A stretch of 49,416 nt of DNA from Pontiellaceae bacterium B1224. Lineage in GTDB: Bacteria; Verrucomicrobiota; Kiritimatiellia; Kiritimatiellales; Pontiellaceae. Each line of letters opens with the position of its first letter. Position 1 is the first letter of the stretch. The position numbers and the translations under genes are program-made. This document shows, one piece after another, positions 5,020-22,924 of this stretch. The notes under the pieces were generated by a model. It saw only the letters and a program-made list of their open reading frames with translations, ran no database searches and had not been told where the DNA came from. The stretch covers positions 1-49,416 of the forward strand of contig JAROBA010000040.1 of the NCBI GenBank assembly GCA_029432815.1, in the 5' to 3' direction.

Positions 5020-8000
5020 TCAAGTATTATACCCAAGGTTCGGGGAGAGCCATTTTTCTGCCTCTTCAACGGACCACCCTTTGCGTTCCGCATAATCTGC
5101 GAGCTGGTCTTTGTTGATGCGGCCGAGCGGGAAGTAGCGCGATTCCGGGTGCGAGAAGTAGAGACCGGAGACGGAACTCGGCGGGGTCATTGCCATGCCT
5201 TCAGTCAGTTGAATGCCGGTGTGCTTCGTGGCTTCCAACAGTTGGAAAATCGTCCGTTTTTCGGTGTGGTCAGGGCAGGCGGGATAGCCAGCCGCCGGGC
5301 GGATGCCCTGATATTTTTCGTTGACCATTTCGTCCGGTGTCAGGTTTTCATCTTTGCCGAAGCCCCATTCATCGCGCACCTGTTTGTGCATATATTCCGC
5401 AAAAGCTTCCGCCAGGCGGTCGCCGAGCGACTGCACCATGATGGCGTTATAGTCATCCAGTTCGGCTTTATATTTATTCGCAATCTCCACCACCTGCGGA
5501 CCTGCGGTTACGGCGAATGCTCCGATGTAGTCGGCGCAGCTTTCTTCCTTCGGTGCAATAAAGTCCGCCAGGCTGCGGTTCGGGGTGTCGTCTTTCTTGA
5601 TCATCTGCTGACGCAGGAAGTGCAGCGTGTTGAGCTTTTCAGTGCGGGATTCATCGGTATAGACCTCAACGCTGTCGCCCACGCGGGCGGCCGGGAAGAA
5701 GGCGTGCACCCCTTTCGGCTCAAACCAGTTTTCGTCGACAATCTTTTTCAGCATCGCCTGTGCATCGTCGAACAGCTCGCGGGCGTGTTTGCCGGGCTCG
5801 CCCGGTTTTTCAAGAATGGAGGGATATTTACCTTCCAGCTCCCACGTCCAGAAGAACGGGGTCCAGTCGATGTAGGGCACAAGTTCCTTCACCGGGAGTT
5901 CCAGAGTCTGGATGCCGAGGGCGTCAGGAGTCGGCGGAATGTAGCCTTTCCAATCATTGGAAAGGGCGCTGTTCGCGCGCGCTTTTTCCAACGGTTGGAA
6001 CTCGCGGACTTCCTGAGACGCTTCGTGCTGCTCCCGAACCGCGTTATATTCAAATTTCACGGCGGCTCTGAATTTTTCATCGCCACTGAGAATCTGCTGC
6101 ACCACGGTTACGGCGCGGGACGCATCGAGCGAGTGCATCGCAAGACCGGAATATTCAGGCGCAATCTTTACGGCCGTATGTTTTTTACTGGTGGTGGCTC
6201 CTCCGACCAGCAGCGGAATGTCGAGGCCTTCGCGCTCCATCTCTTTGGCCACATGCACCATTTCGTCGAGCGACGGCGTAATCAGGCCGGAGAGGCCAAT
6301 GATGTCCGCGCCCCATTCCCTGGCTTCTTTGAGAATCGTGTCCCAGGGAACCATGACGCCGATGTCTTTGACCTCAAAGTTATTACAGGCGAGCACCACG
6401 CCGACAATGTTTTTGCCGATGTCATGCACATCGCCTTTCACCGTGGCCATCAGTATTTTCCCCGCGCTGGAGCTTGCACCCTCTTCTTTCTCTGCATCCA
6501 TGTAGGGAAGGAGATAGGCCACGGCCTTTTTCATGACACGCGCACTTTTCACCACCTGCGGCAGGAACATTCTTCCGGAGCCGAACAGATCGCCGACCAC
6601 GCCCATGCCGTCCATCAGCGGCCCTTCAATCACATGCAGCGGGCGGTCATATTTCTGGCGAGCTTCCTCGGTATCTTCATCGATGTAATCGACAATTCCT
6701 TTAACCAATGCGTGCTTGAGCCGCTCTTCAACCGACTCTTCGCGCCACGCCTGGGTTTCGACTTCCTTCTTGGCGGTGCCGCCTTCGGCTTTCACGCGCT
6801 CGGCAAATTCAATCAGGCGTTCTGTGGCATCTTCATCGCGATTCAGCATCACGTCTTCGACTGCTTTCATGAGATCCGGCGGAACTTCGTCGTACACTTC
6901 CAGCATACCGGCATTCACGATGGCCATATTCAGGCCGACTTCCATGCCGTGATAGAGGAAGGCCGCGTGAATGGCTTCGCGAACGCGGTTATTGCCGCGA
7001 AATGAGAATGACACATTACTGATGCCGCCGCTGACGGAGCAGCCGGGCAGGGTGTCGCGGATTACTTTGGTGGCTTCGAAGAAGGAGGTTGCATTAATTC
7101 GGTGCTCCTCCATGCCGGTTCCGATCGGGAATACATTCGGGTCGAAAATGATATCAGTTGGATCGATGCCCAATTCACCGACTAGAATATTGTAGGCACG
7201 AGTGCAGATATCGATGCGTCGCTCGGTGGTATCGGCCTGTCCTTTTTCGTCGAACGCCATCACGACCATGCCCGCACCGTAGCGCTGGATTTTGCGGGCG
7301 TGGGCACGGAAAGCGTCTTCACCTTCTTTCATGCTGATCGAATTGACAATCGCTTTGCCCTGCACGCATTTGAGTCCGGCTTCGATGACTTCCCATTTAG
7401 AGGAGTCGATCATGATCGGCACTTTGGAAATGTCCGGCTCGGATGCAACGAGGTTCAGAAACTTCACCATCATGGCTTCGGAGTCGATCAGCCCTTCATC
7501 CATGTTGATGTCGATAATGTTGGCGCCATTATCCACCTGCTGGCGGGCAATCTGCAGCGCAGCTTCCAGATCGCCTTCGCGGATCAGGCGGGCGAATTTC
7601 GGTGAGCCGGTAATGTTCGAGCGCTCGCCGACCATCACCAGATTCATTTCCAGAGTGATGCGCAGCGGTTCAAGTCCGCTGAAGCGCGGCGCGTTGTCGG
7701 GCTCAGGGGGGACGCGCGGGGAATACTTTCTAACCACATCGGCCATTGCCTGAATATGCGCCGGCGTGGTGCCGCAGCAGCCGCCCCAGATATTGGCGAG
7801 CTGGTGCTCGGCAAAATCGTTGTAGATTTTGCTCATGTCTTCGGGGGTATCGTCGTAGCCGCCAAACGCATTCGGCAGACCGGCGTTGGCGTAGATGGAG
7901 ATGTAGCACGGAGCCACTTCAGACAGCTCTTCCAGATAGGGGCGCATGTCGGCGGCACCGAGGGCACAGTTGAGGCCGACGGAGATCGGCTTGGCATGTT

Positions 8001-8730
8001 CAACACTGTACCAGAAAGCGGTCGGCGTCTGGCCGGAAAGGGTACGGCCGGAGCGGTCGGTGATGGTTACGGAGATCATGACCGGCAGGCGTTTTCCGGT
8101 TTTTTCGAAGACCTCTTCAATGGCATATATTGCGGCTTTCGCATTCAGGGTGTCGAAAATGGTTTCGACGAGCAGCACATCCACGCCGCCTTCAATCAGC
8201 GCTTCGGTTTGCTCCGAATAAGCAGCCACCAAATCGTCGTAGGTCACGGCTCGATAGCCCGGATCGTTCACGTCAGGTGAAATGGAGGCGGTGCGGTTGG
8301 TCGGGCCGATGGAACCGGCCACAAACAGGGTGCGCGAAGGATCTTTTTCCAGAACGCGATTAACGGCCTGGCGGGCCAGTTTGGCACCTTCGATGTTCAG
8401 TTCACGGACGAGCGGTTCCAGGCTGTAGTCGGCCTGCGAAATCGTGGTGGAACTGAAGGTGTTGGTTTCAATGATGTCTGCGCCGGCTTCGAGAAATTCG
8501 ACATGAATGTCTTCAATGATATCCGGCTTGGTGAGGATCAGCAGATCGTTGTTTCCTTTGAGGTCGGAAGGATGGGCGGCAAAGCGTTCGCCGCGGAAAT
8601 CGGCTTCCTCCAGTTTATGCTTCTGGATCATAGTGCCCATGGCGCCATCAAGCATCAGGGCGTTGGATTTCAACAGGGCGGCAAAATTGCGGCCGCCGGG
8701 TTCGGTATAGTTCAATTCTTTCTGATTCAT
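5020..8730 (-). CDS. metH: Cobalamin-dependent methionine synthase MetH
   Basis: The protein has 1236 residues, full length for MetH, with all four modules. The homocysteine barrel has zinc cysteines in GLNCALG (near 252) and GGCCGTTP (near 315). The pterin-binding barrel includes [14 protein letters not shown]-like sequence near 360. The cap and B12 domain carries [10 protein letters not shown] near 766, whose His ligates cobalt. The AdoMet reactivation domain carries [12 protein letters not shown] near 1143. It transfers the methyl group of methyl-THF to homocysteine in the cytoplasm. GAGGAT precedes the ATG. The MTHFR fusion downstream supplies its substrate. Three TTCCA-N5-TGGAA palindromes lie in the 3' third of the gene. 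No B12 riboswitch was recognised upstream. Confidence 0.97.
5233..5247. repeat. TTCCA-N5-TGGAA palindrome inside metH
   Basis: Core ACAGT. On the metH strand it encodes FQLLE, codon phase 0. Confidence 0.85.
5948..5962. repeat. TTCCA-N5-TGGAA palindrome inside metH
   Basis: Core ATCAT. It encodes SNDWK, codon phase 1, a different phase from its neighbour 24 bases away. Confidence 0.85.
5986..6000. repeat. TTCCA-N5-TGGAA palindrome inside metH
   Basis: Core ACGGT. It encodes FQPLE, codon phase 0. Confidence 0.85.
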
Positions 8731-8764: not shown

Positions 8765-8792
8765 ATATCCGTTTATCCGGATATTGCAATAT
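8765..8792 (-). promoter_or_regulatory. Overlapping palindromes upstream of metH (candidate operator)
   Basis: ATATCC-N8-GGATAT (8765-8784) overlaps the perfect palindrome ATATTGCAATAT (8781-8792), 35-62 bases before metH. On the metH strand a TATATT element lies directly next to it. The position fits an operator for a repressor of methionine genes, but no regulator is encoded nearby and the motif was not matched to a known one. Confidence 0.4.
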
Positions 8793-8902
8793 AAAACGTT
8801 CTGCATTGTTTTGCTGAGTGTTTTAATGGTTTTTGGGCGAGGTGAAAGCTTAATTCGGATTCCAGTGGTTCGATGAACTCACCACAGGGGATTGGAAAAA
8901 GG

Positions 8903-8943
8903 AAGCGGCGCAGGATTAAAGGGGTATAAATCCTGCGCCGCTT
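8903..8943 (-). terminator. Strong terminator between the response regulator and metH
   Basis: A perfect 15-bp inverted repeat (AAGCGGCGCAGGATT and its complement) surrounds an 11-base loop. Read on the minus strand it is followed by CTTCCTTTTTCC. It would stop transcripts coming from the upstream minus-strand genes before metH. Confidence 0.75.
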
Positions 8944-8990
8944 TAGGAAGAAGAAACCAATAAAGTCTCTTGCACATCAAACGAGATGAG

Positions 8991-9112
8991 GAAGGGATTG
9001 TGGACAAAAAGAGTAAGAAAAGATTTTAATCAAGGTCTGAACTGCGTCGAAGACTCTGATTTCCATATTATTCCTTAAACGAATCGGCGGTCCGGCCCAG
9101 TCGGTTTCTGTT
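8991..9112. repeat. Island-flanking direct repeat, left copy (dinB 3' end)
   Basis: About 122 bases align without gaps to 21696-21817 at roughly 83% identity. The first 20 bases (GAAGGGATTGTGGACAAAAA) are identical. The copy contains the last ~29 codons of dinB and 35 bases beyond its stop. Same orientation as the right copy. Confidence 0.85.
9026..9112 (-). pseudogene. Relic of the dinB 3' end
   Basis: Read on the minus strand it gives NRLGRTADSFKE, a TAA stop, then YGNQSLRRSSDLD and TAA. The intact dinB ends NRLSRTADSIKEKYGNQSLRRGSDLD. The rest of the gene is absent. An in-frame stop and several substitutions show that it is no longer a functional end. It marks the left boundary of the polysaccharide island. 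Confidence 0.85.
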
Positions 9113-9155
9113 CACCTATAAACGGAAATGCAGGTGTTCCCGATCAATCTGCAAT

Positions 9156-9170
9156 TTCCAAAGGTTGGAA
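9156..9170. repeat. TTCCA-N5-TGGAA palindrome, intergenic
   Basis: Core AAGGT. It lies four bases beyond the stop codon of the LuxR-type regulator, just inside the left end of the island. Confidence 0.85.
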
Positions 9171-9174
9171 AAGA

Positions 9175-9834
9175 TCACCGGTTTGGCCGGAAAAGACCGA
9201 TTTTGTATGCTTTGGCAACAGCGGCGGGCGCATTCTCCACCTGAAGCTTTTCGTAGATGCGGCGAATATAGGTGGCAACCGATCCGAAACTGATGTTCAG
9301 CTGATCCGCAATTTCTTTTTTAAGAAAACCTTCTCCGAGAAGTTTGAGTATTTCGAGTTCCCGGTCGGAGAGCGGATGGTCCGCCTGAACAGGCAGGGCT
9401 TTTTGCTGGAGTTTCTGCAGGATGAACTGAGCAACGCTCCCGTCGAGTGACGCCCCTCCCTGCATCACGGTTCGAATGGCTTCCTTGATCTGGGTGATGG
9501 TGGATTTTTTTAAAAGGTAGCCCGCTGCTCCGCGTTGTATGGCGGTCAGGACATCGGTTTCATGATTCGATTGTGTCAGGATAATAATCTTTGCTTCCGG
9601 AAGAAGCTCTGTGATCAGCGGCAGGGCCTCAAGACCGCTGATCCCGGGAAGGTTGAGGTCGAGCAGAATGAGGTCCGGATTGTTTTTGCCTTCTTTGATG
9701 TTTCGAAGTGCCACTTCAGCTGCGCCGAACAGCGAGCCGAGAAACATGTCTTCCTCTTTTTCCAGGGCCATTTCAATGACCTTGCGATATTTCGGGTGAT
9801 CCTCGATCAGCATGATCCGTGTCTTGGCGTTCAT
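9175..9834 (-). CDS. NarL/LuxR-family response regulator
   Basis: The 219-residue protein has a receiver domain with acidic pocket ED (11-12) and phospho-acceptor Asp59 in LILLDLNLPG. A LuxR-type helix-turn-helix near 150-210 includes LSDRELEILKLLGEG and KKEIADQLNIS. The ATG at 9834 overlaps the kinase stop codon as ATGA, so the two are translationally coupled. An earlier in-frame ATG at 9891 lies inside the kinase gene. It probably activates the divergent carbohydrate genes starting at 12034, which is inferred from adjacency and from both lying between the dinB-derived repeats. Confidence 0.9.
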   Translation of the reverse strand: MNAKTRIMLIEDHPKYRKVIEMALEKEEDMFLGSLFGAAEVALRNIKEGKNNPDLILLDLNLPGISGLEALPLITELLPEAKIIILTQSNHETDVLTAIQRGAAGYLLKKSTITQIKEAIRTVMQGGASLDGSVAQFILQKLQQKALPVQADHPLSDRELEILKLLGEGFLKKEIADQLNISFGSVATYIRRIYEKLQVENAPAAVAKAYKIGLFRPNR

Positions 9835-11819
9835 GTTTTTTTCCTGGTTGAAAATATTCTGTTTCCGGTTGCCAGCGTCAGCACAATACACGTTCCGCCT
9901 GCGCTTACATTTTCTACTGCCACTTTTGCCCCCATGAGCCGAGCCCGGCGTTGCAGTGATTTAGGAACCGCTTGCGAGGCAATGTCCGGCAGTCCGTGGC
10001 CATTATCAATGAGCGTTAACTGGATTCGTTTTGCTGAGGCATGCAGGGTCGTGCTGAGTTTTGAAGCTTCGGCATGGCGGCAGATATTGATGAGTGCTTC
10101 TTTATAGAAAAGGAATAGGTCCGAACGGACCAGGGGTTTCAGCTTGGCAAGATGTTCCACGCCCTCGATTGAAAAATCGTGCTCCAGCTGAACCACAATG
10201 CGCTCGGCCGCCTGCTGCATGGTCTTGCCCAGATCGAGTTTAAGTGCGTTGGTATGCAGGTGGGCGCATTCCCGTACCGCCTCTCCGGTTTCTTCGGTGG
10301 TGGTGCGTATCTGGCTCAGGAGTCGGGACAATTCCTTTGGATCGTTGCCGGTCTCGCCGGCAAGATCACTCAAAAGCCCGATGGTGTGCAGATCGGCTCC
10401 GAGCTCATCGTGGAGGTCGGCGGCGAAGCGCTCCTGCATATTGGATTTCTGGCGCATGCGAACCATGCGTCCCACCAGCATGGAGATCACAATGCCAACA
10501 CCCAGGGCAGCGGCCAGCCAGATCAAAAGTCTCAGAGTGACTTTCTGTTTTGCGTAACGGAGGTTCAATTCTGTCTCAACAAATGGGCGTAAGGCTTTCA
10601 GATCGTGCCGGCGCGACAGCTGATTCATCCACTCCCGCTGCGGGAGGATTTCTCCATAATAATTTACGCCGTCGGTTATGCGGATCAGGCAACCCTGTTG
10701 ATGTTTCAGGCTTGGGCTGACGGAGATCGGCGCATGGCGTGCAACATTCCTGCCGTCGGATATCACTTCGATTTCAGAAAAAGAGATTACGGGCCGGTCG
10801 ATTGCAAAGGGGAGAACTGAGGTGTGGTCAACGATTTCAATTCCGATGTAACGACACCGTATTTCCGGGAAGTTTCGCATGATGATCGGGCCGGTGTCAT
10901 GAACGGTTTTAAGCCGGTATTCACACAAGTCCCTTGTATCAGAAAAGTCCGGACGGTTGGCTCCGGTAACACGCACATAACGGGGTACGGCCCAGCTGCT
11001 TGGGCTTTGTTTCGGTATTGCGTAGGAAAGATCCGCCGAATGAAAATTAATCTGACTGATTGGATAGGGCGATTTGAGATCAAGGGTTAACTTCGGCAGC
11101 GGGTCATTGTCGGTGACGTGCAGCAGCAGGCTTTTACTGGGGGCTCCATGGGCGGCATCCAATATGTAGGGCGTGAACCCGTCCACCAGGAACCTGGGCT
11201 CAAGCGAACCGTCGCGCGCCGGCGTGTTGGTCGGTACGGTCACAGGTTTGTGCAGGGCCACATTCTCCGTTCCGCTGAACACCATGATCTCAGAAAGCTG
11301 CAGGAAATATTGTTTGCCCCGTAGCCGCGGAGTGAGCGCGGTGGCTTCGATCCTGATCCACGATGCGCGGAGGGGAGGGAAGGATACCGTTAATGGTGCC
11401 ACTCGGGCCGTTTGATCTTCATTTGCCGAGACCACGGCCACTTCATTCGTGTTTAGGCCGGTCCCCGCGAAAATGCGAAATTCCTGGGGGAAACCCTCTG
11501 CCTCTACGCCCGCATGCGGTTCACGATACAGCACCGGTGCCAGGACCACTGCATCAATAACCGTCTCTTCCCCCAGCTCGATGCGGATCCATTCCTTTTT
11601 GTCGGGAGACTTGTGTATGCTGGATCGGTAGCCGAGGGAGCCCACATCCCGGCGCAGGGTCAGGCTGGCGAGGGTTTTAAGTTCGCGGTCGATGTCATTC
11701 AGCTTTTGTTCCAGTTCGGACAGCTTCAGTTCTGTCAGATTTACAGGATCATTTTGCGCTGCGCTGATCAGCGGAAGCAGTCCTGCGAGTATGATGGACG
11801 GAATGTAAAAGCGATTCAT
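9831..11819 (-). CDS. NarX-type sensor histidine kinase with large extracytoplasmic sensor
   Basis: The start is taken at ATG 11819, which opens a signal peptide ending LISAAQN; the ATG at 11855 would add 12 residues before it. The 662-residue protein has a large exported region (25-415) of beta-rich repeats resembling discoidin-type galactose-binding domains, with WIRIELGEETVIDAVVLAP and NVALHKPVTV. One membrane helix follows near 420-440. The HisKA_3 box RFAADLHDELGADLHTIGLL has its His near 467. The HATPase domain has an NICRHAEASKL N-box and DNGHGLPDI. Discoidin-like folds often bind glycans, so it may sense the polysaccharide or its fragments. It is divergent from the lyase/hydrolase genes and coupled to the regulator downstream. 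Confidence 0.85.
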   Translation of the reverse strand: MNRFYIPSIILAGLLPLISAAQNDPVNLTELKLSELEQKLNDIDRELKTLASLTLRRDVGSLGYRSSIHKSPDKKEWIRIELGEETVIDAVVLAPVLYREPHAGVEAEGFPQEFRIFAGTGLNTNEVAVVSANEDQTARVAPLTVSFPPLRASWIRIEATALTPRLRGKQYFLQLSEIMVFSGTENVALHKPVTVPTNTPARDGSLEPRFLVDGFTPYILDAAHGAPSKSLLLHVTDNDPLPKLTLDLKSPYPISQINFHSADLSYAIPKQSPSSWAVPRYVRVTGANRPDFSDTRDLCEYRLKTVHDTGPIIMRNFPEIRCRYIGIEIVDHTSVLPFAIDRPVISFSEIEVISDGRNVARHAPISVSPSLKHQQGCLIRITDGVNYYGEILPQREWMNQLSRRHDLKALRPFVETELNLRYAKQKVTLRLLIWLAAALGVGIVISMLVGRMVRMRQKSNMQERFAADLHDELGADLHTIGLLSDLAGETGNDPKELSRLLSQIRTTTEETGEAVRECAHLHTNALKLDLGKTMQQAAERIVVQLEHDFSIEGVEHLAKLKPLVRSDLFLFYKEALINICRHAEASKLSTTLHASAKRIQLTLIDNGHGLPDIASQAVPKSLQRRARLMGAKVAVENVSAGGTCIVLTLATGNRIFSTRKKT

Positions 11820-12033
11820 AAAAACATATGTATCAGGAAAAAAACAAAACGCCAAGTCAGCGGCCTGACTTGCCTGTCGACCGTTTAGTGGACATGACAG
11901 ATTTCTGTACGGGGCGTAACTTATTTCGTGTTAATGGGTAATCGGTCGGAAAGGCAGACAGCCCGTTGCAGTCATTCGATCCTGAACGGTTGGGGTCTGG
12001 CTTGTAAACAAGAGCGAAAGCAGGAGATAGAAG

Positions 12034-14028
12034 ATGAGAAAGAGCAGAACTGTTACGTCATTTATAGCCGGTGTATTCCTCGCCGGTGCATCGCAGGCCG
12101 CGCTGGTCGGTGAATGGAGGTTTGAGGGCGGGTCCGCGGATGATACCAGTGGCAACGGCTATAACGGAACCATTGTGGGATCGGTTGAAAGTGTTAGTGG
12201 GGTCGAAGCCGACACATCCGCGCTGGAGTTTGGTGCAACATCCGGCTGGGTGAGCATTCCGATGGAGGCATTTTCCGGCATTTCGAATGAAATGACTATT
12301 GCAATGTGGACCTTCGGTGATGCGGATATACTCGGTGATGGTTCAACCCCAAATAGTGCTTTCGGTTCAAATAACCGAAATATGCTGCATTCGCATACGC
12401 CGTGGCACAATGGAAATATGTATTGGGACGCCGGCACGGTCCGGAGTAGCTACAACATAGGGGATTCATCGAAGTACAAAGGTAAATGGAACCATATGGT
12501 CTTTGTTATTAACGCAACAACCGGCGAAAAAAAGGTGTACATCAACGGGGTGCAGGACAGTCCAACATGGAGCGGTTCTTTTGCCCCGATTTCCGGTATA
12601 ACCGCTTTTGCCATCGGGGCGAATAATCTCAGCGGCGCCACTCACTATTATGGGAAGATTGACGAGTTCCAGCTGTATGACCATGAACTTTCCGCGACGG
12701 AAGTCTCGAACCTGTATGCCCGTGTCGAGGTGGATTTTATCACGGCCGTGGCGACCGCAACGCCGGATAACGGTGCCCCGCCGCTCGAAGTTGCCTTCGA
12801 TGGTTCCGGCAGTGATGCCAGTGCGGCTATCATTTCATACAGCTGGGATTTCGGCGATGGAAGCAGCGACACAGGTTTGATGGTTACCAACACATATGCC
12901 TCTTCCGGCGAATACACGGCTACGCTTATTATTGAGGACGATACCGGAAGGTTCGCGACCAACACGGTAGACGTTTCCGTCGATCATTACCTGACGGCCG
13001 CCGTCTCCGCAACACCGATGGTTGGATCCCCCCCGCTGGAGGTCGCGTTTGATGCATCCTCCAGCACGTCGAGCACCTCCATTGTTTCCTACAACTGGGA
13101 TTTCGGAGATGGCAACCTGGACAGCGGAATGATGGTTACCAATATCTATACAGACGTGGGGGTGTATACGGCTGCTGTTGTTGTGGCTGATTCCCACGGG
13201 CTGTTGGATACCAATGCGGTGGTGATCACTGTGCAGAACTATGTTGGCACAGAGATCGTCGCGACGGAGGAAAAGTTTGACTCCACAAACTATCCGTCAT
13301 TCTACACCAACGATCTGCTTCAGACAGAGTTCCTGTCCAGCTCAGCTTCCGGCCCCGAAGCGATGGGTACCGCGCGTCATGTGGAGATGTTCAACGGCAC
13401 CATTGGCGACGAAAACACCGGAACAGGCGATACCGACGGTGTCAGGGCGCTCATCGGCAGCACGTTCACGGTCATCTTCGACACTTCAGTGAATGTGAAT
13501 GGTTATGACATCACTGAGATCTCATCGATTGCGGGATGGAATCCAGCTGGCGGCGGTCGGGCCAACCAGGGCTATGGCATCGAAGTAACCTATGTGGATG
13601 ATACCACCGCAGTGCTGGCGGATCCGACCCATTGGGCACCAAATGATCCCTCCAGTTACTGGACCAAGGCGACGCTCGTTGAAACCAACGGCCTGGCCCT
13701 GGCGAAGAATGTGAAATCCATTACGTTCACCATCTCGGAAAATGCCGCAACCGCAGGCGGTGTCGTGATCTACCGCGAATTCGACGTTCTGGGCACGCCG
13801 ACTGCCGGGGCACCCTCGGAAATCGTGATTGAGTACAACGACGATCTGGCAGAGCTTTCGTGGGCAACAGACAGCTCATTCTATGAATACAGCATCCAGA
13901 GTAACCTGAATCTGGGCTTCGGCACCTGGGGAACCTTCATGACCGTGGAAGGAACACCTCCGGAAACAAGAGTGGTTCTTCCGGCGAAAACCGAAAATCA
14001 GCAGTTTATTCGTGTGATTGTTGAGTAG
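12034..14028 (+). CDS. Secreted LamG-PKD-PKD protein with a C-terminal conserved module
   Basis: The 664-residue protein has a signal peptide (cleavage near ASQA-ALVG). A LamG/concanavalin-like domain spans 25-230, with LVGEWRFEGG, WNHMVFVIN and YYGKIDEFQLYDHELSATEV. Two PKD domains lie near 235-316 and 317-400, each with SYxWDFGDG. A ~185-residue module (404-590) is shared with the lyase gene downstream. A short tail resembles a cell-surface sorting or stalk domain. AGGAG precedes the ATG. No catalytic residues were recognised, so it is probably a surface glycan-binding protein. It leads the plus-strand island genes and is divergent from the sensor kinase. Confidence 0.8.
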   Translation: MRKSRTVTSFIAGVFLAGASQAALVGEWRFEGGSADDTSGNGYNGTIVGSVESVSGVEADTSALEFGATSGWVSIPMEAFSGISNEMTIAMWTFGDADILGDGSTPNSAFGSNNRNMLHSHTPWHNGNMYWDAGTVRSSYNIGDSSKYKGKWNHMVFVINATTGEKKVYINGVQDSPTWSGSFAPISGITAFAIGANNLSGATHYYGKIDEFQLYDHELSATEVSNLYARVEVDFITAVATATPDNGAPPLEVAFDGSGSDASAAIISYSWDFGDGSSDTGLMVTNTYASSGEYTATLIIEDDTGRFATNTVDVSVDHYLTAAVSATPMVGSPPLEVAFDASSSTSSTSIVSYNWDFGDGNLDSGMMVTNIYTDVGVYTAAVVVADSHGLLDTNAVVITVQNYVGTEIVATEEKFDSTNYPSFYTNDLLQTEFLSSSASGPEAMGTARHVEMFNGTIGDENTGTGDTDGVRALIGSTFTVIFDTSVNVNGYDITEISSIAGWNPAGGGRANQGYGIEVTYVDDTTAVLADPTHWAPNDPSSYWTKATLVETNGLALAKNVKSITFTISENAATAGGVVIYREFDVLGTPTAGAPSEIVIEYNDDLAELSWATDSSFYEYSIQSNLNLGFGTWGTFMTVEGTPPETRVVLPAKTENQQFIRVIVE

Positions 14029-14087
14029 TTCACCGCTGCTCCGGGTCTCCCTCCCTGCCGATGCTCCTGTGCAGCGAGGGGGGTTTG

Positions 14088-14143
14088 TTTTAGAAAATTC
14101 TAAAATGGGTAATAGTAAGATGAAGAATATGCAGATACTGCAT
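14088..14143. other. Two short palindromes upstream of the PEP-CTERM gene
   Basis: TTTAGAAAATTCTAAA (14088-14103) is a perfect 16-base palindrome and ATGCAG-ATA-CTGCAT (14129-14143) a second one, 52-107 bases before the start at 14195. They may be operators or part of the leader of this gene. No terminator with a T-run is visible after the preceding stop. Confidence 0.35.
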
Positions 14144-14194
14144 TTGTTGGTGCGCTATTCGGCGTTTCGGAAATAAAAAAAAGGAAATAATACA

Positions 14195-14830
14195 ATGAAA
14201 AAGTATATCTTAACTTCCGTTTTGCTTGGGCTTATGGTCGCTGCGTCAAACGCAGAAACCATTGTCTTTATTGATCCAAACAACTCGGGCGACATTACGT
14301 ACTCCAGCCTCTTTACGCTGGACAACAGCTCGACTGCCGCAACGGCGACGGTCAATGTTGCTGCAGACGCCCCTGGGGGAACTCCTGCATTCTCGTTCGA
14401 CCTCACTCTTGAGAGTCTGACTTCTGATAACCTGAATTACAGCTCAAACGCTACCAGTGACTTTCCGAGCACTGGTTCAGGGCTGATGAATGCTGGTGGT
14501 ATGGGAATCAGGTATACGGTATCCAATATCAGTGATGCCGATGTCCAATTTGATTATTTCCATAGCTTTACAATTGGTGGCAATGGAGGGACTGATATCA
14601 CCCGGTTCACATCGGGCGCAAATACGTTTACTTCGGATTCCACTGCAAATATAGCGCTTGGTGAGGGCTATGTGAGCCCCTTGGAGGTTGAGTTTATCGG
14701 CACCGGTGGAGGAATTCGTATCAGTAATACGCGCCTTCAGTTTTCCGCGATTCCGGAACCGGCCACGTTGGGGCTGATTGCAATGTTTGGCGGAGGTATT
14801 CTGTTCATCCGCCGTCGGTTCATGATGTAA
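14195..14830 (+). CDS. PEP-CTERM sorting-domain protein
   Basis: The 211-residue protein has a signal peptide ending VAASNAET, a beta-rich middle, and a textbook PEP-CTERM tail. The tail is IPEPATLGLIAMFGGGILFI (from residue 187) followed by RRRF. PEP-CTERM tails are cut by exosortase (EpsH family) and the protein is then released or anchored at the surface, commonly with exopolysaccharide. No exosortase gene is in this window. The short body has no recognised enzyme domain. AAGGAAATAATACA precedes the ATG. It is followed by a clear terminator, so it forms its own transcript inside the island. Confidence 0.85.
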   Translation: MKKYILTSVLLGLMVAASNAETIVFIDPNNSGDITYSSLFTLDNSSTAATATVNVAADAPGGTPAFSFDLTLESLTSDNLNYSSNATSDFPSTGSGLMNAGGMGIRYTVSNISDADVQFDYFHSFTIGGNGGTDITRFTSGANTFTSDSTANIALGEGYVSPLEVEFIGTGGGIRISNTRLQFSAIPEPATLGLIAMFGGGILFIRRRFMM

Positions 14831-14851
14831 TTCATATGATATGATGTGTTG

Positions 14852-14887
14852 AAAACACTGCGCTGCTGGTTTGGCGCAGTGTTTTTT
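14852..14887 (+). terminator. Rho-independent terminator after the PEP-CTERM gene
   Basis: AAAACACTGCGC, a 10-base loop, GCGCAGTGTTTTTT. Confidence 0.85.
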
Positions 14888-14943
14888 ATCTTTAATGAGG
14901 CAGGGCTGGGTTTCGTTGTAATGGGAAAAGAAAGCGTGGAAAG

Positions 14944-17900
14944 ATGCAGAAACTGAAACACCTGAGAGCCGGAGTTATGGGAGCGGCTCTACTGCTGGGC
15001 GGCCTGGTCTGCGCCGATGATATCCATTATACCGGTGTGTCCGGAGGAGAGTGGGTGACCGGCGCAAACTGGAGCAGCGGGACGTATCCCGCGATCACCG
15101 ATATTGCTTATCTCGACACCACCGCCAACCTCAGCGTGAAGTCGCCGAACAATATTCAGGGTATTCGTGTTGGAACGAGCGCTGATGGCCGGCTTCAGAT
15201 CGGCAGTCAGGCTTCGCTGACTGCGAATACGAGTTCTACGGTGACGAGCATCATCGGGGATGGAAGCGGGCATACAGGATCCGTCCTGCAGGAGGGCGGC
15301 ACTGTCGAAATCAACCGGCTCACCATCGGCAGCAATTCCGGTTCGGGGATCTATCACATTCACAGCGGCACCTTGTCGATCACTCGCGAGAGCGGAGGCA
15401 ACTCGCTCTTCCTCGCCACCAGCGGATCCGGCGAGGGGACGTTCCGCATCAGCAGCGGCAGCTTTGTTGCCCGGGCGGGGGTCCAGCTTGGCTCAGCTTC
15501 GGGCGGCATGGGACGTTTCGAGGTGATCGGGTCGCACCCGGGCGCCATCGGAATTGGTTCAACCGGCACGCTCGACGGGCGCTGGATACAATATGCCGGG
15601 TCCACCCTCAGCGTGCGCATCGACAAAACCGCGCAGGGCATCACCCCGATCTTTATCGACGAAACCGGGGGCGATGGCGGGGGCGACGTCGTCTTCGAAA
15701 ACGGCGCTCTCCTTGACGTTGATTTTACCGCCGCGTTCCTGAATGGCGGCACCTTCACGGTGATGGAGTGGGAAGGTGATGTGACCGATAAAGGGCTCCG
15801 GTTCGCGTCTTCGGTCGATACCCATATCTGGAGTTTCAAGGTTGATGTGGCCAATAAGCGGCTCACTGTTACTGCCGTCGGCAGTCCGGCCAGCCGGGCG
15901 TTCGTTCATCCGGGCCTTTCGCATAAGCGGTCCGACCTTGACCGGATGCGCGACATGGTTGCGGCCGGCGTTGAACCCTATGCCAGTACATTTGCCGCCT
16001 TTGCATCAAATGGAAAGTCTCAGCACACCTACCAGCCAAGTACGACGGCAGAAGAGCTGGAAGCGGACGGCGGAACCGCCAATAATAATGCCCTGCGGAA
16101 CGATGGTGTTGCGGCCTATTATAACGCCCTGATGTGGTATATCACCGGAGATGAGCGGCATGCCGAGGCCGCCATCCGTATCTTCACGGTGTGGTCTGGC
16201 GTAACCAATATTAGCGGCATTCCTCTGAACGCCGGTCGTCACTGGCGTTTGATCGAAGCGGCGGAAATTATCAAGAGCACCTACGACGGTTGGGAACCAT
16301 CCGACCTGCAGGCCTTTAAGGATATGCTGGTGTATCCGGGGTACTCAAATGCCAGCGAGCCCGGCGGAAACCGGAGTATTTATTGGAGAGCTTATCAGGG
16401 AGACCCGGCCCGGCACGGAAATCAGGGCCTTTTTGCTATGCGCTGCGTGATGGCCATCGGTGTCTTTCTCGACAACGAAATCATCTATGATCGCGCCCTT
16501 CGCTACCTGCAGGGAGCGCCCGCCCGACGCGATGATATTCCCTATGTAAGCGGACCCTCCGTTGCTGAAACACAGATCGGAACCTATGAGCACTTCCTTG
16601 AATTCAGCCGCACCGGGCAGGAGAGTACGATTGCGGACTATGGCTACAACGAAGTGATCCATAACTATATTTACCCTAATGGCCAGTCGCAGGAATTTTC
16701 CCGGGACATGGCGCATGGGTTGGCGGGAATCGGCATTATTGCCACCATGTCTGAAATGGCCTGGAGTCAGGGGGATGACCTCTATGGACACCTGAACAAC
16801 CGTCCGCTCCTGGGGCTCGAATACTACTACCGGTACAACCTGAGTTACGAACGCTCCTTCCCGGATCAAACGACCTCATGGGAGCCGACGGTGGAAAACG
16901 GAGAATTCATTCAGCGGCTCGATCAGTCCGGGCGTTGGTTCTCGCTCAAGGCCAATCCCTATCTGGCTCAGAATACGGATCCGGAAGACTGGCACCGGGG
17001 AAGAACCAGCCTCATTCAGGCTCCCATGTATGAAATGAATCTGGCTCATTACCGCGATCGGATGGGTGTGTTATCGGAAGACACCAAATGGCTGCAGCGC
17101 GGCCACAACCTGCTGGTCAGCGAACTCGGTTTTGAAGGAGAGGGAACGCCCTGGGACCACCCCTCGTGGGGCGGACTGACCTTCCATCGCGTCAGCCCCG
17201 GTGATCCCGTTGAAGGTTTCACCAATGGCGTTCCGATGTTTGAAATGAACGTGTTGCCGGCGACTATCGGGGCCGAGAACTATGATTACTTTGCCCTTGG
17301 TGGAGAAGGGCGTACCTACCACGATCTTTCAATCGGAAATTCCGCTGGCGAGTACCGCCGGGGAGAAGGCGTGGATATCACAGCCTCTTCCGAGGGGGAG
17401 TATGCACTGACCGGTTTGGAAGACGGTGAATGGCTCACCTACACGGTGTCGGTTCCGACCAACGGGCCGTATGATATTTCCATTCGTTGCAATGCTTCCA
17501 GCGCAGGCGGCAGTATCCAGTTTAGTTTTGACGGGGTGGATCGAACCGGTGCGGTGACCGTCCCGGTCGGAAACGGTTGGCAGGATGTTGTCATAGCCGA
17601 AGGCGTTGCACTCTCCGGCGGGGTGCAGCAAATGAAAGTCAGCTTCTCCGGTATGCCGGATGTATTTGAGCTCAGCTCCATTTCCATCGAAGGCCCTTTT
17701 TTGCCGTACGTGGTTTCAACAACAAAAAGCGATACGGCTCCGGAAATGAGTGATAGCGATCTGGCACAGACCCAATATTTCAGCAGTTCAGCCACCGGCG
17801 GTGAAGCCGTCGCCACGCGTCATGCGGAGTTATTCAATGGTGTGATTGGCGACAATGACAGCGGAACCGGTGATTCAGGAGTGGTACGGATGAACAGCGA

Positions 17901-18489
17901 CAACACCGTATCCGTGACCTTTGACACATCAGTCCATACCAACGGATACGATTTGACCGGCATCACAACCTGTTTCGGGTGGAATCCGGCAAGTGGAGGT
18001 CGTTCCAATCAGGGGTATGAACTGATCCTGACTTATATGGACGGTTCGACGGCAACGCTGGCCGGGCCGGCGCACTGGGAGCCCAACAGCCCGGCGTCGT
18101 ACTGGACGACGGTAACGTTCACCAATGCGCCGGGGCGTCTGCTGGCATCGGGCATCAAGGCAGTGACATGGGACATCACACAGGATGCCAATGCAAGTGG
18201 TGTTTTGATTGCCCGTGAATTCGACGTTTTCGGCACACCGACGCTGAATGCTGAAGATTATATCGCAGCGTTTTCCAGGGGCAACCTCAGCTTTTCCAAT
18301 GGTTACCTTAATGCGCAATTTTCCGCCATCGTTGGTGCGGATTACCGGGCGGAATGGAAAGAGAGTCTTATGAGTTCCAATGGTTGGATGACCGTCACAA
18401 ATTTCCAGCCCTTGGAAAACTCGCCGTTTTTGTTGAGCGTCCCCGCAACGAATGGAGCGGCATTTTTTCGGGTGCTTTGGTTGCCGTAA
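14944..18489 (+). CDS. Large secreted polysaccharide lyase (alginate-lyase-type domain) with CBM6
   Basis: The 1181-residue protein has a signal peptide (to about 21) and a beta-helix/autotransporter-like repeat region (22-315). An alpha-barrel alginate-lyase-family domain follows (about 318-760), with HGNQG (491-495) and SRDMAHGLAGIG (586 on), the motif that marks this family. Then come a CBM6-like domain (787-915: GEYRRGEGVDI, GEWLTYTVSVP), a ~180-residue module shared with the 12034 gene (922-1101), and a short tail ending FFRV. Related lyases cleave uronic-acid-containing chains by beta-elimination (PL5/PL38-like). Substrate cannot be read from sequence. GGAAAG precedes the ATG. Next to GH117 and sulfatase genes it probably acts on a sulfated algal polymer. 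Confidence 0.75.
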   Translation: MQKLKHLRAGVMGAALLLGGLVCADDIHYTGVSGGEWVTGANWSSGTYPAITDIAYLDTTANLSVKSPNNIQGIRVGTSADGRLQIGSQASLTANTSSTVTSIIGDGSGHTGSVLQEGGTVEINRLTIGSNSGSGIYHIHSGTLSITRESGGNSLFLATSGSGEGTFRISSGSFVARAGVQLGSASGGMGRFEVIGSHPGAIGIGSTGTLDGRWIQYAGSTLSVRIDKTAQGITPIFIDETGGDGGGDVVFENGALLDVDFTAAFLNGGTFTVMEWEGDVTDKGLRFASSVDTHIWSFKVDVANKRLTVTAVGSPASRAFVHPGLSHKRSDLDRMRDMVAAGVEPYASTFAAFASNGKSQHTYQPSTTAEELEADGGTANNNALRNDGVAAYYNALMWYITGDERHAEAAIRIFTVWSGVTNISGIPLNAGRHWRLIEAAEIIKSTYDGWEPSDLQAFKDMLVYPGYSNASEPGGNRSIYWRAYQGDPARHGNQGLFAMRCVMAIGVFLDNEIIYDRALRYLQGAPARRDDIPYVSGPSVAETQIGTYEHFLEFSRTGQESTIADYGYNEVIHNYIYPNGQSQEFSRDMAHGLAGIGIIATMSEMAWSQGDDLYGHLNNRPLLGLEYYYRYNLSYERSFPDQTTSWEPTVENGEFIQRLDQSGRWFSLKANPYLAQNTDPEDWHRGRTSLIQAPMYEMNLAHYRDRMGVLSEDTKWLQRGHNLLVSELGFEGEGTPWDHPSWGGLTFHRVSPGDPVEGFTNGVPMFEMNVLPATIGAENYDYFALGGEGRTYHDLSIGNSAGEYRRGEGVDITASSEGEYALTGLEDGEWLTYTVSVPTNGPYDISIRCNASSAGGSIQFSFDGVDRTGAVTVPVGNGWQDVVIAEGVALSGGVQQMKVSFSGMPDVFELSSISIEGPFLPYVVSTTKSDTAPEMSDSDLAQTQYFSSSATGGEAVATRHAELFNGVIGDNDSGTGDSGVVRMNSDNTVSVTFDTSVHTNGYDLTGITTCFGWNPASGGRSNQGYELILTYMDGSTATLAGPAHWEPNSPASYWTTVTFTNAPGRLLASGIKAVTWDITQDANASGVLIAREFDVFGTPTLNAEDYIAAFSRGNLSFSNGYLNAQFSAIVGADYRAEWKESLMSSNGWMTVTNFQPLENSPFLLSVPATNGAAFFRVLWLP
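18403..18417. repeat. TTCCA-N5-TGGAA palindrome inside the lyase gene
   Basis: Core GCCCT, encoding FQPLE in phase 0. A one-mismatch copy lies at 18375-18389. This is the only strict copy among the island's coding genes. Confidence 0.8.
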
Positions 18490-18559
18490 TGGAATGCGTT
18501 TGGTGCATACGGTCGTGGTTGGCGGGATGTAGTTATTATTGAAAAAAAGGAATGTGAAT

Positions 18560-20128
18560 ATGAAACAGGTTATGGTGGCAGTCGGAATGGCTGGGCTGAT
18601 GTCGGCAAACGGATCCGCCTCGGCGAATGAAAGCTGGACGATTGGAACGCAGGAGGAGTGGACGGCGAACTCCGCGAAACAGACCCATCTTGAAATCAAA
18701 GAGGGCAAAGCTTCTCCGACAGGTGCCGAGGCCTCAGTCTCCAGCATCATGAAACGCTTTCCGGAGAAACGTTCCATGGCGTCTTTTACGATTTCCCAGT
18801 CGCCGGACTGGCTGAACTGGAAGCCCGTGCCGAACGTCGGTCCTGCAGGGCTGGGGGATGCTCCGGTGGCCCTGCAACTGGGCGACGGTGACTACTGGAT
18901 GTTTGGGCGCTTTAAGGCAGCAAAGACGAAGGAGGTGCGCGAATTTGCAGGCAACGCTGTAACGCTGGACGGGTTTGATATTCCGCTGAAAACGACTCCG
19001 TTTCCCAATGTCTATAATGCGCCGGGTGGATTAAAGAAAAGTGCCGGCGGCTATCATGTCTGGCAGAGTAAAGATATGGTGAACTGGGTGCACCATGGAT
19101 CGGTTACTAAAGGGGCCTCCGCCTGGGTGACGACCGCGGAGGTGGCCGATGGAAAATTCTACATCTATTATGATTTTCCGAATGATCAGGACCCGCATCT
19201 CTTCATTGATGAAGATCTGACCGACGGCGTTCCCGGGAAGGATATGGGAATGGCTTTTAACGATCCAACGCATGGATCCGACTGCGTTTTTATCCGAGAC
19301 CTAGACGGGAACTTTCACGTGATTGCGGAAGATTGGAGTCCGATTAATGCGCAGACCCATGCCTGGGATTCTCCGCTGGCGATTCATGCGGTCAGTCCGG
19401 ACGGCATTAATGATTTTAAGATTCTGGAGCAGCCGCCGGTGGATGAGCGGACGACGCCGACGGGGAAATTTGCGGAATATTATCATCCGCACTGGCATGC
19501 GGCTGATCCCGAGAAGTATCCGGGAGTACCGGTTCCGTTTGATATTCCGAAGAACCGCATTAAAAAAGGAGATATTCGTGCGGTCGGTCGATATGAAATT
19601 CATGAGCCTGAGCAGAATGCCTATGGCGACTGGGCGGCGATCTGCATTGGCGGGCAGTATTATCTTTTCGGCGACTTCGATCGTGCGGGATCCAATAACG
19701 ATCACGGTGCAATGAGTGTGGCCTGGTTTACGTCCGACGACATCAACGCACCCTTTACGTTCTGCGGCAGCATTGGCAAAGGACACCCCGATCCTGAAAT
19801 TCTTTTTGCCGAGGGGCAGTTCTATCTGCTGACTCAGACGAAGAGCGACTATATCAGTCCCGGCCCATGGGTGGATGGCGTTGAGGTGCGCGTTGGAGTG
19901 GACACATCCAATGATGGGAAAGTGGATCAGTGGTCTGATTGGAAGACAGTTTCTGAGCAATATGACTACATCGAGGGTTTCTCCAAGCAGATTGCTAAAA
20001 TACCGGCGCAGATGGATCTTTCGGGGCTGCCTGAAGGATATGGTTTTCAGTTTGAGATTAGGCTGAGCGATGCCACTGATAACGAAGCCAAACCGATCAT
20101 CGATGCGGTTTCTGTAACGTTTAATTAA
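18560..20128 (+). CDS. GH117-family glycoside hydrolase (neoagaro-/anhydrogalactosidase type)
   Basis: The start is ATG 18560, preceded by AAGGAA, opening a signal peptide ending GSASA; an in-frame TTG at 18539 is less likely. The 522-residue product is a single beta-propeller enzyme. It has the long conserved stretches typical of GH117: SPDWLNWKPVPNVGPA, YDFPNDQDPHL, HGSDCVFIRD (238 on), EDWSPINAQTHAWDSPL (near 258), NAYGDWAAICIGGQYYLFGD, and GHPDPEILFAEGQFY (near 407). Known GH117 enzymes remove terminal 3,6-anhydro-galactose from agar or carrageenan oligosaccharides by an exo mechanism. The signal peptide suggests a periplasmic or outer location. It is followed 17 bases later by the sulfatase, so they are probably co-transcribed. 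Confidence 0.8.
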   Translation: MKQVMVAVGMAGLMSANGSASANESWTIGTQEEWTANSAKQTHLEIKEGKASPTGAEASVSSIMKRFPEKRSMASFTISQSPDWLNWKPVPNVGPAGLGDAPVALQLGDGDYWMFGRFKAAKTKEVREFAGNAVTLDGFDIPLKTTPFPNVYNAPGGLKKSAGGYHVWQSKDMVNWVHHGSVTKGASAWVTTAEVADGKFYIYYDFPNDQDPHLFIDEDLTDGVPGKDMGMAFNDPTHGSDCVFIRDLDGNFHVIAEDWSPINAQTHAWDSPLAIHAVSPDGINDFKILEQPPVDERTTPTGKFAEYYHPHWHAADPEKYPGVPVPFDIPKNRIKKGDIRAVGRYEIHEPEQNAYGDWAAICIGGQYYLFGDFDRAGSNNDHGAMSVAWFTSDDINAPFTFCGSIGKGHPDPEILFAEGQFYLLTQTKSDYISPGPWVDGVEVRVGVDTSNDGKVDQWSDWKTVSEQYDYIEGFSKQIAKIPAQMDLSGLPEGYGFQFEIRLSDATDNEAKPIIDAVSVTFN

Positions 20129-20145
20129 AGTTGATAGGTAAAGTG

Positions 20146-21666
20146 ATGAAGAACTTCTTTTTTATGTTGATCGCGGGATTATTGCTTTCTGCAGGTTCTG
20201 CGATTGCGGAACGGGCCAGACCCAACATTATCTTCCTGATGACGGATGATCAGCGGTGGAATAATTTCGGTTGCTACGGGAATCCTGAATTTAAGACGCA
20301 TAACATCGACCGGTTGGCGGAGCAGGGGGTGATCTTCGATAAGGCCTATTATGCGGTGGCCATCTGTAAGCCCAGCCGGGTGACGATGCTGACGGGACGT
20401 TACTTTGCGAATCATCGTGTGGGATTCTCGCCGCCGTTTGACTACTCCCTTTCTCAGGCGGGACTGGCCGACAGTTATCCCGCTCAGCTCAAGGAGGTAG
20501 GTTACCGCACCGGCTTTATTGGAAAAGTAGGTTTTACGGTTACCGAAGAGGCCATACGCCCGGGGGAGACCAAGAACTATGACCTCGAAAAATACTTCAA
20601 AACCACCTTCGACTTTTTTGTGGGTGACGGTACGCATACGGGTGGGGCGTCAAAAATGTGGCCTGCGGATGATCCGGGCTTGAGTGAGATCTATCGGAAA
20701 GACCGTAAGAACACCACCCGGACCCTCCGAAACGGTGAAGCCATCCTGCGTTTTCTTGATACACAGCCTAAGGACCGGCCCTTCTGCCTTTCGGTTAGTT
20801 TTCTTGCAACGAAACATGATAGTGATTCGCATGTCTACATGCCGCATTACGAGCTTTTTAAAGACGTTGAGTTCGAGGCTCCGGATAACTGGGTGGAGGG
20901 TGCAAACGAGGGGCTGCCTCAGGTGGTGAAAGATCATGCCCGTGGATTCCGGCTTCATCTGCAGCGTACATCCACTCGTGAACTCTTCCTGCGGCAGGTG
21001 CGTCGTTTTGCAACACAGGGGTATACCGTTGATCAGCAAGTGGGCCTGATGATGGATAAACTCAAGCAGATGGGCATGTTGGATAACACGATTATAATTT
21101 ATACCAGCGACAATGGGCGCTTTCAGGGATCACATGGTCTGTACGACAAGTGTATTCTCTATGAGGACTCTATTAAACAGCCGTTGATTGTTTATGACGG
21201 CCGTGTTCCGGAAGACCGTCGTGGGCGTCGTGAAGATGCACTGGTTTCATCGGTTGATATTGCACCGACGATTCTTTCGATGGCCGGTGTAAAGGCGCCG
21301 GAGAGTATGCAGGGGCTCGATTTGTGCGGAATCCTGAACCAGACGCAGGATCGGTCTCAGTGGCGGGATGCGGTCTTAATGGAGAATCTTTTTATTGCAT
21401 CGATGCACGGAGCGCGAAACAAGCCGGATGCGATTGAGCGAAATGAAAAAATGGTTGCAGCAAACAAGTCGTATCGGACGCGCGGTGTGCGCACCGACCG
21501 CTACAAATATTTCATCTATTACGAGCATAATCCGCCGATCGAAGAGCTCTACGATCTGGACAAAGATCCGCTCGAACAGAACAACCTGGTGAACAATCCG
21601 GAATACGCGGAGCAATTGAAAAAATTGCGCAAGCGCACCGAAGAACTGTATCAGGCCGTGCGGTAG
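20146..21666 (+). CDS. Secreted type I (formylglycine) sulfatase
   Basis: The 506-residue protein starts at ATG 20146 with a signal peptide ending GSAIA. The sulfatase signature is CKPSRVTMLTGRY. Cys74 would be turned into formylglycine by FGE-type activation and Arg78 is conserved. Metal ligands lie in NIIFLMTDDQRW (near 30) and IIYTSDNGRFQGSHG. The C-terminal region ends with the usual YDLDKDPLEQNNL motif. This is family S1 of sulfatases; the subfamily was not determined. It removes sulfate esters from the glycan acted on by the GH117 and lyase neighbours. It is the last gene of the island, ending 30 bases before the right direct repeat. Confidence 0.92.
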   Translation: MKNFFFMLIAGLLLSAGSAIAERARPNIIFLMTDDQRWNNFGCYGNPEFKTHNIDRLAEQGVIFDKAYYAVAICKPSRVTMLTGRYFANHRVGFSPPFDYSLSQAGLADSYPAQLKEVGYRTGFIGKVGFTVTEEAIRPGETKNYDLEKYFKTTFDFFVGDGTHTGGASKMWPADDPGLSEIYRKDRKNTTRTLRNGEAILRFLDTQPKDRPFCLSVSFLATKHDSDSHVYMPHYELFKDVEFEAPDNWVEGANEGLPQVVKDHARGFRLHLQRTSTRELFLRQVRRFATQGYTVDQQVGLMMDKLKQMGMLDNTIIIYTSDNGRFQGSHGLYDKCILYEDSIKQPLIVYDGRVPEDRRGRREDALVSSVDIAPTILSMAGVKAPESMQGLDLCGILNQTQDRSQWRDAVLMENLFIASMHGARNKPDAIERNEKMVAANKSYRTRGVRTDRYKYFIYYEHNPPIEELYDLDKDPLEQNNLVNNPEYAEQLKKLRKRTEELYQAVR

Positions 21667-21695
21667 ACGCGCTGTGTTGGAGAACGGGAACGGCT

Positions 21696-21817
21696 GAAGG
21701 GATTGTGGACAAAAATTTCGGGAAAAGGTTTTAATCAAGGTCTGAACCGCGTCGAAGACTCTGATTCCCATATTTTTCCTTGATCGAATCCGCCGTACGG
21801 CTCAGTCGATTCCGTTT
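21696..21817. repeat. Island-flanking direct repeat, right copy (dinB 3' end)
   Basis: It contains the functional 3' end of dinB (last 29 codons and stop) and 35 bases beyond. Direct repeat of 8991-9112. The segment between the copies is 12.6 kb. Confidence 0.85.
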
Positions 21818-22924
21818 GTCGCGTTGAACGGTATCCGGTGGATCGAACAGGTTCAGCTGGAAGGCGTCGATGCTGTCGGTTTCTGTTAAACCGCTGGTTC
21901 CGAATCCGATCAGGCGTACGGGCCGATGCCGCAAATGTTCTTCCAGCAGCTCCATGCCGACTTCCCGCAGGGTGATGTCATCGCTGGCCGGAATGGCGAG
22001 GCGGGTCTGGCGGGTGATGGTGGAAAAGTCGTTCCAGCGGATTTTAAGATGCAGGGTGGTGGCGAAAAAGCCGGCTTTCCGCAGACGACCGGCCACTTTG
22101 TCGATCAGCTTTTTGTAGGTGGCTTCAATGTGTTCGCGGTCGGTGACATCCTCTTTAAAGGTCGTTTCATTGGAAATGCTTTTTTCGTCGACCTCGCCGC
22201 CGATGCCTCGTTCGTCGATTCCGTGGGCGAGTCGGCGAAAGAGATGGGCGGAACGCGAGCCAATGGCTTCTTCCAAACGTTGGAAGTCGAACGTCTGCAG
22301 TTTTCCAATGGTTGGAATGCCGAGCGACAGCAGTTTTTTCTGGGTGACCTTGCCGACGCCCCACATGCGGCCGATGGGCAGGGGAGCCAGAAAGGCTTCG
22401 ATCCCGGCCTGATTGAAAGGGACGAGGGTTAGGCCGTCCGGTTTATTCTGATCGGACGCGATTTTGGCCAGGAACATATTCGGCGCCACGCCGACCGAGG
22501 CGGTCAGCTGCGTCTGTCTAAAAATGTCGGATCGGATTTTTTCAGCGATGGTTCTGCCGTCGCCGAAGAGGCGGCGGGCGCCGGTGACATCGAGAAAAGC
22601 TTCGTCGATCGAGAGCGGTTGCACATGCGGGGTGTACGATTCGAAAATCCGCATGATCTGCCGGGAAACCGCTTTATAGTTTGCCAAATTATGAGAAACA
22701 AAAACTGCATCCGGGCACTTCTGTTTAGCGAGTCGCGAGGGCATGGCGGAATGAATGCCGAATTTGCGGGCCTCGTACGATGCCGCGGCCACCACGCCGC
22801 GCTGGTCCGGGGGCGAACCGACCACCACCGGCTTGCCGCGCAGCTCGGGATGATCGCGCTGTTCAACGGAAGCAAAGAATGCATCCATATCAACATGTAG
22901 AAACGTGGTATCAAAGTGATTCAT
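21731..22924 (-). CDS. dinB: DNA polymerase IV (Y-family)
   Basis: The 397-residue protein has the Y-family palm motifs: HVDMDAFFASVEQRD near the start, and SIDEAFLDVTG near 104, whose Asp-Glu pair binds catalytic metal. Helix-hairpin-helix sequence MWGVGKVTQKKLLSLGI lies near 185. The little-finger region follows and an extended tail runs from 350 on. It copies past damaged bases with low fidelity. Two TTCCA-N5-TGGAA palindromes lie in the gene. Its 3' end is duplicated 12.6 kb away at the far side of the polysaccharide island, so it seems to have been the insertion or recombination point. Confidence 0.95.
   Translation of the reverse strand: MNHFDTTFLHVDMDAFFASVEQRDHPELRGKPVVVGSPPDQRGVVAAASYEARKFGIHSAMPSRLAKQKCPDAVFVSHNLANYKAVSRQIMRIFESYTPHVQPLSIDEAFLDVTGARRLFGDGRTIAEKIRSDIFRQTQLTASVGVAPNMFLAKIASDQNKPDGLTLVPFNQAGIEAFLAPLPIGRMWGVGKVTQKKLLSLGIPTIGKLQTFDFQRLEEAIGSRSAHLFRRLAHGIDERGIGGEVDEKSISNETTFKEDVTDREHIEATYKKLIDKVAGRLRKAGFFATTLHLKIRWNDFSTITRQTRLAIPASDDITLREVGMELLEEHLRHRPVRLIGFGTSGLTETDSIDAFQLNLFDPPDTVQRDKRNRLSRTADSIKEKYGNQSLRRGSDLD
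22271..22285. repeat. TTCCA-N5-TGGAA palindrome inside dinB
   Basis: Core AACGT, encoding FQRLE in phase 0 on the dinB strand. Confidence 0.85.
22303..22317. repeat. TTCCA-N5-TGGAA palindrome inside dinB
   Basis: Core ATGGT, encoding IPTIGK in phase 2. It lies only 17 bases from the preceding copy but in another codon phase. Confidence 0.85.

Follow-up and report, generated by a model that had tools for sequence, protein, structure and literature searches.

What brought a block of polysaccharide genes between dinB and metH in Pontiellaceae bacterium B1224, and why does a copy of the dinB 3′ end stand at each of its borders? The window analyzed is the whole stretch of 49,416 nucleotides (contig JAROBA010000040.1, positions 1 to 49,416) of this marine, Pontiella-like host, and the island within it (9113-21695, 12.6 kb) comprises seven genes of an algal-polysaccharide type. 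The original prediction held that a catabolic cassette had been acquired at the dinB 3′ end in the way in which integrative elements restore a gene end, and offered as an alternative that DNA of a related strain, with a dinB end of its own, had recombined here.

Two copies of the dinB 3′ end frame the island

Comparison of the window with itself by BLASTN revealed a direct repeat, 8991-9106 versus 21696-21811 (116 bp, 85.3% identity, E 2e-31). Between 8991-9112 and 21696-21817, 102 of the 122 bases match, in agreement with the predicted ∼122-base repeat of ∼83% identity in the same orientation. The right copy, taken to be the true end of dinB, indeed covers the last 28 codons of a 397-codon ORF (21731-22924, minus strand) and ∼35 bp beyond it. 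The left copy had been described as a dead fragment, and its translation, NRNRLGRTADSFKE*YGNQSLRRSSDLD*, confirmed a stop in frame (TAA, 9068-9070); besides the stop, four further amino-acid changes separate it from the right copy. A search for dinB-end fragments elsewhere in the own genome returned these two copies only, the next best match having an E of 0.18. Exact runs within the 85% repeat do not exceed ∼20 bp, and a decayed att core is possible. No flanking IS elements or short target duplications, of the kind expected for a composite transposon, were found at the island, and an Rfam search of 8400-22000 gave no match. A 13-bp match between the edge of the left fragment and upstream dinB was probably due to chance.

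The features of the locus are collected in Table 1. The response regulator gene ends at 9175, 62 bases from the left repeat, and the sulfatase gene at 21666, 29 bases from the right one (62 and 30 had been predicted). Neither the ORFs nor the family models revealed an integrase or any other mobility gene in the island, and there is no space for an integrase, because the gaps between island ORFs are at most ∼180 bp; the predicted absence of an integrase therefore stands. Most of the gene identities proposed earlier were supported by family models. For the GH117-like protein only a marginal GH43 match was obtained, and no PDB relative was found by sequence; the PEP-CTERM protein was recognized by its tail, which is plain, though the family-model search gave no match. 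The LamG/PKD protein (13338-13576) and the lyase (17784-18019) have a C-terminal domain in common (52% at the protein level), which recurs in many secreted proteins of these genomes.

Elsewhere in the window, a 77-bp direct repeat (90%; 95-171 and 1446-1522) and a 67-bp palindrome (1490-1556) flank an EpsF-like gene (192-1490); contigs C22 and C127 carry related palindromes, so that repeat and palindrome are probably a dispersed miniature element. The ORF at 44805-46487 contains internal repeats of 73-78% at 45461-46129.

Table 1. Features of the dinB-metH region, in coordinates of the window
Feature	Coordinates	Strand	Basis
metH; ancestral neighbor downstream of dinB	5020..8730	-	
Conserved hairpin of the ancestral intergenic region 3′ of dinB; the island now lies between hairpin and dinB	8903..8943	-	inverted repeat; aligned in six relatives
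Left direct repeat: decayed native dinB 3′ end (28 codons, TAA in frame at 9068-9070) and ∼35 bp of native downstream sequence	8991..9112	-	self-comparison; colinear with the dinB-metH junction of relatives
LuxR-type response regulator (Response_reg and GerE), left edge of module	9175..9891	-	family models
Sensor histidine kinase, F5/8 type C domain and HisKA_3	9831..11855	-	family models
LamG/PKD secreted protein	12034..14028	+	family models
PEP-CTERM protein, recognized by its C-terminal tail (IPEPATLGLIAMFGGGILFIRRRFMM); no family model match	14195..14830	+	
Alginate-lyase-like polysaccharide lyase with CBM6	14944..18489	+	family models
GH43/GH117-like enzyme candidate, marginal family match	18539..20128	+	
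Sulfatase (SGSH_C type), right edge of module	20131..21666	+	family models
Right direct repeat: functional dinB 3′ end and 35 bp downstream	21696..21817	-	self-comparison
dinB (DNA polymerase IV), intact; ancestral neighbor upstream of metH	21731..22924	-	

The site is empty in nine relatives

The genus includes Pontiellaceae bacterium B12227 (G019), B12219 (G020) and Pontiella sulfatireligans F21 (G027); the own genome is denoted G000. In nine relatives (G019, G020, G001, G002, G003, G015, G009, G008 and G016), dinB and metH are adjacent on the same strand, 104-515 bp apart. Thus, metH is joined directly to dinB, and a metH-island-dinB order kept in relatives, the outcome named beforehand as fatal to an acquisition, was looked for and not found. 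In an alignment with the relatives, the left copy runs on unbroken from the dinB end through TTTTTGTCCA and the hairpin into the metH leader. The right copy leaves this alignment 35 bp past the dinB stop, at the start of the island. Since the left copy is colinear with the junction of the relatives, it is the dead copy that marks the native junction, and the extra end is the one on the intact dinB. The insertion between dinB and metH, the duplication and the native (left) junction are hereby established.

No duplicated dinB end was found in the relatives, and an apparent second dinB tail in G011 turned out to be only a frameshift. The 32 kb that separate dinB from metH in that genome (G011:C1:2445000-2479300) are a phage-like element with a TniB/AAA ATPase, ∼200 bp past dinB, and no gene-end duplication was detected at it. 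On the other side of metH, a gene of the 23S rRNA-intervening-sequence type (4523-5002) lies between metH and the homocysteine methyltransferase/MTHFR gene; it is present at this place in G020 and G003, and was not found in G019, G001 and G002.

The island is one copy of a recurrent module

The closest relatives of the cargo are within the genus (lyase, 78% in G019; GH117-like protein, 70%, and sulfatase, 67%, in G020), and copies similar to the island cargo are also present elsewhere in the own genome. Four sulfatase-rich genomes each contain 16-19 matches to the F5/8C sensor kinase; relatives of the kinase and the regulator are numerous in each such genome, often at the edge of a polysaccharide cluster. 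At a different chromosomal locus of B12219 (G020:C203), the same genes occur in the same order and on the same strands, i.e., response regulator (-), histidine kinase (-), LamG/PKD (+), PEP-CTERM (+), lyase-type (+), GH117-like (+) and sulfatase (+), with one extra sulfatase. From this gene order and the many kinase and regulator relatives, it follows that the dinB island is one copy of a module that recurs many times in Pontiella genomes. It resembles the polysaccharide utilization loci described for Pontiella, which are sulfatase/hydrolase clusters with a histidine kinase and a response regulator nearby (PMC10880615); movement of the modules is not treated in that paper, as the words horizontal and transpos are absent from its text. 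Long repeats near the kinase/regulator modules of contigs C66 and C204 were paralogous coding sequence, not gene ends.

Base composition had been proposed as a check on the origin of the island. The GC3 of the island genes (0.52-0.64) is below that of metH, MTHFR, dinB, Memo and the alpha/beta hydrolase (0.62-0.68) but overlaps that of the other flank genes (0.53-0.60), and composition is thus only weakly informative.

Gene ends are duplicated around other inserts

A repeat scan of 1.92 Mb (36%) of the genome, for pairs spaced 1.5-100 kb in which one or both copies were not wholly within an ORF, detected 22 direct and 1 inverted pairs. These counts are only indicative, because the direct pairs include several dispersed elements, promoters and stretches inside paralogous genes. 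In the scanned part, gene-end duplications surround inserts at four sites: dinB, a trpD-like gene, ilvD and an ABC-F gene. The duplicated ends include both 5′ (trpD) and 3′ (dinB, ilvD, ABC-F) gene ends, and no integrase was evident in the inserts examined. The comparison with empty sites in relatives was made for dinB and trpD.

The second polysaccharide insert (C33:76262-96225, 20 kb) begins with a regulator/kinase pair followed by genes for secreted proteins; the repeats at its two borders are 158-160 bp of the trpD-like gene's 5′ end (Glycos_trans_3N/Glycos_transf_3), with 82% identity. The right trpD copy is frameshifted and colinear with the native upstream flank, itself 78-82% identical to that of relatives, and the site lacks an island in G001 (where the same DUF2231-like and OmpR genes lie near trpD), G020 and G011. 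The fragment is 86% identical to G020 versus 82% to trpD of its own genome. Additional trpD 5′ fragments are located 2.2 kb upstream of trpD in G027 (L247 10242-10368) and, with no island, ∼100 bp upstream in G001 (L243 3247-3322), which hints at a spot of repeated insertion. The dinB and trpD sites are built alike: the intact gene abuts the insert, and the decayed end lies on the far side, joined to the native flank. In both polysaccharide inserts a response-regulator gene forms the edge of the module on one side.

On contig C127, a PAS histidine-kinase gene lies between two copies of the ilvD 3′ end (199 bp, 87%). On C182, the 3′ end of an ABC-F ATPase gene (202 bp, 80%) surrounds genes for an XhoI endonuclease and an Eco57I-type methylase; an AraC gene follows, and past it stands a further 63-bp copy of this end, a layout that looks like two consecutive insertions (L270 7311-13375 for the two together). 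A genuine integrative element served as a control: at tRNA-Leu (G000:C33:56087-65549), an exact 63-bp repeat recurs 9.3 kb apart, and the far repeat adjoins a tyrosine-recombinase-like ORF. Taken together, the duplicated gene ends at these further inserts, one of them a second polysaccharide island, point to an integrase-free route for moving such blocks.

How the island may have been added

It is probable that the polysaccharide module (9113-21695) was inserted between dinB and metH with a ∼120-bp-long target duplication, the incoming DNA bearing its own dinB 3′ end. Such DNA, with the dinB end on one side, could have been added by homology-anchored integration, i.e., by a single crossover of a recircularized fragment or by homology-facilitated illegitimate recombination. 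The intact dinB would retain one 3′ end, and the displaced end, still joined to the native hairpin and to metH, would decay. We infer a related strain as donor, natural uptake and homology-anchored recombination of the RecA type. ComEC was found in the genome and Ku was not, which uptake with homologous recombination fits better than end joining does. This conclusion is nearer to the alternative offered by the original prediction.

In Escherichia coli, linear DNA was trimmed, recircularized and integrated by a single crossover; 56 of 60 screened products were duplications, and the homologous locus was duplicated over 109-950 bp in 14 sequenced products (PMC3240628). Successive integrations of this kind have been proposed to leave the orphan gene ends of the T6SS immunity arrays of V. 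cholerae (PMC5361080). These routes share with the dinB site an additive integration anchored on one side; they differ in that they are not known to have been demonstrated in this phylum, and in that the anchor identity here would be low. Indeed, 85% identity over 122 bp with exact runs of ∼20 bp is a poor substrate for RecA, unless the crossover took place in the body of dinB, and no identity step marking a donor tract was observed along dinB or trpD.

It is unlikely that the duplication arose in situ, with foreign DNA captured as a staggered break close to the end of the gene was filled in, and that the two copies, identical at first, then drifted to 85%. Such an origin accords with the location of the stop and the non-synonymous changes in the fragment, and with trees of the short ends, which weakly group copies of the same genome (dinB, 80/72, the two copies being mutual nearest relatives; trpD, 59/78) on 122-151 columns of poor resolution; because of this grouping, the trees do not show different donors. 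However, in-situ capture would call for end joining, for which no Ku was found, and the trpD fragment is closer to G020 than to the trpD of its own genome. Furthermore, 53 of the 96 differences between copies (55%) are at codon position 3, versus ∼44% expected by a rough estimate if one copy decays (p 0.03), which suggests that the copies diverged in part when each was still the end of a working gene.

Quite unlikely, too, is an integrase-mediated island whose att site lay in the dinB 3′ end, so that the gene end was restored on integration, and whose integrase was lost afterwards. Integrative elements of the icd/e14 type restore the 3′ end of a gene, and the end that they displace comes to lie on the other side of the insert. 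The dinB site has this anatomy, with an intact gene and the native end displaced beyond the insert, and the tRNA-Leu element shows that integrase elements exist in this genome. In contrast to such elements, the island has neither an integrase nor room for one, its repeat is imperfect (80-87% over 116-202 bp at the duplicated gene ends versus 100% over 63 bp in the control), and a like pattern is found at the 5′ end of trpD and at other, unrelated genes whose cargo differs. An integrase downstream of dinB in G012 was considered and discarded, since it adjoins a tRNA-like sequence, not dinB, and G012 has no second dinB end. The acquisition proposed originally is supported (empty site in nine relatives, colinear left fragment); the likeness to integrative elements extends to the anatomy, not to the mechanism.

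A tandem duplication of the dinB end that preceded the entry of the module between the copies is improbable: the islandless trpD fragment of G001 could represent such a first step, but no relative has a duplicated dinB end, and the two-step coincidence would be required at several genes. That the locus is an assembly chimera is hardly credible: the genome is a draft in 204 contigs, but a repeat of 122 bp with 85% identity poses no problem to assemblers, both flanks are colinear with relatives, and a second case lies on another contig.

Discussion

Insertion with long target duplication has been described for restriction-modification genes (Nobusato, Uchiyama, Ohashi and Kobayashi, Gene 2000; Furuta 2010), as these studies are cited in PMC3031569, PMC1643837 and PMC4978471. 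The insertion favored here shares with that process, as it is presented there, a long and variable direct target duplication with no integrase or IS. At dinB, an occupied site can be set against an empty one, and the 122-bp duplication is far longer than those made by transposons. Restriction-modification genes, the typical but not the defining cargo, were not found in the dinB island, and the ABC-F site of this genome carries them. The differences are a cargo of 12-20-kb polysaccharide modules, copies that have diverged to 80-87%, and one target that is a gene 5′ end.

We conclude that the acquired catabolic island with its long target duplication is real, while its mechanism is what we infer; the novelty lies in the large catabolic cargo and in the use of 5′ as well as 3′ gene ends. 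As a tentative generalization, Pontiellaceae may build their stock of polysaccharide modules by repeated integrase-free addition at the ends of housekeeping genes. A displaced end copy would be left at each addition, and old insertions could therefore be read from gene-end scars.

With this finding, catabolic islands of 12-20 kb would join restriction-modification genes among the cargo of insertion with long target duplication. Gene-end scars would be a sequence signature for the place and the direction of module entry, so that acquisition could be counted across genomes, and testable donor alleles are predicted at every scar. This bears on how marine degraders outside the Bacteroidetes accumulate many polysaccharide modules without conjugative elements.
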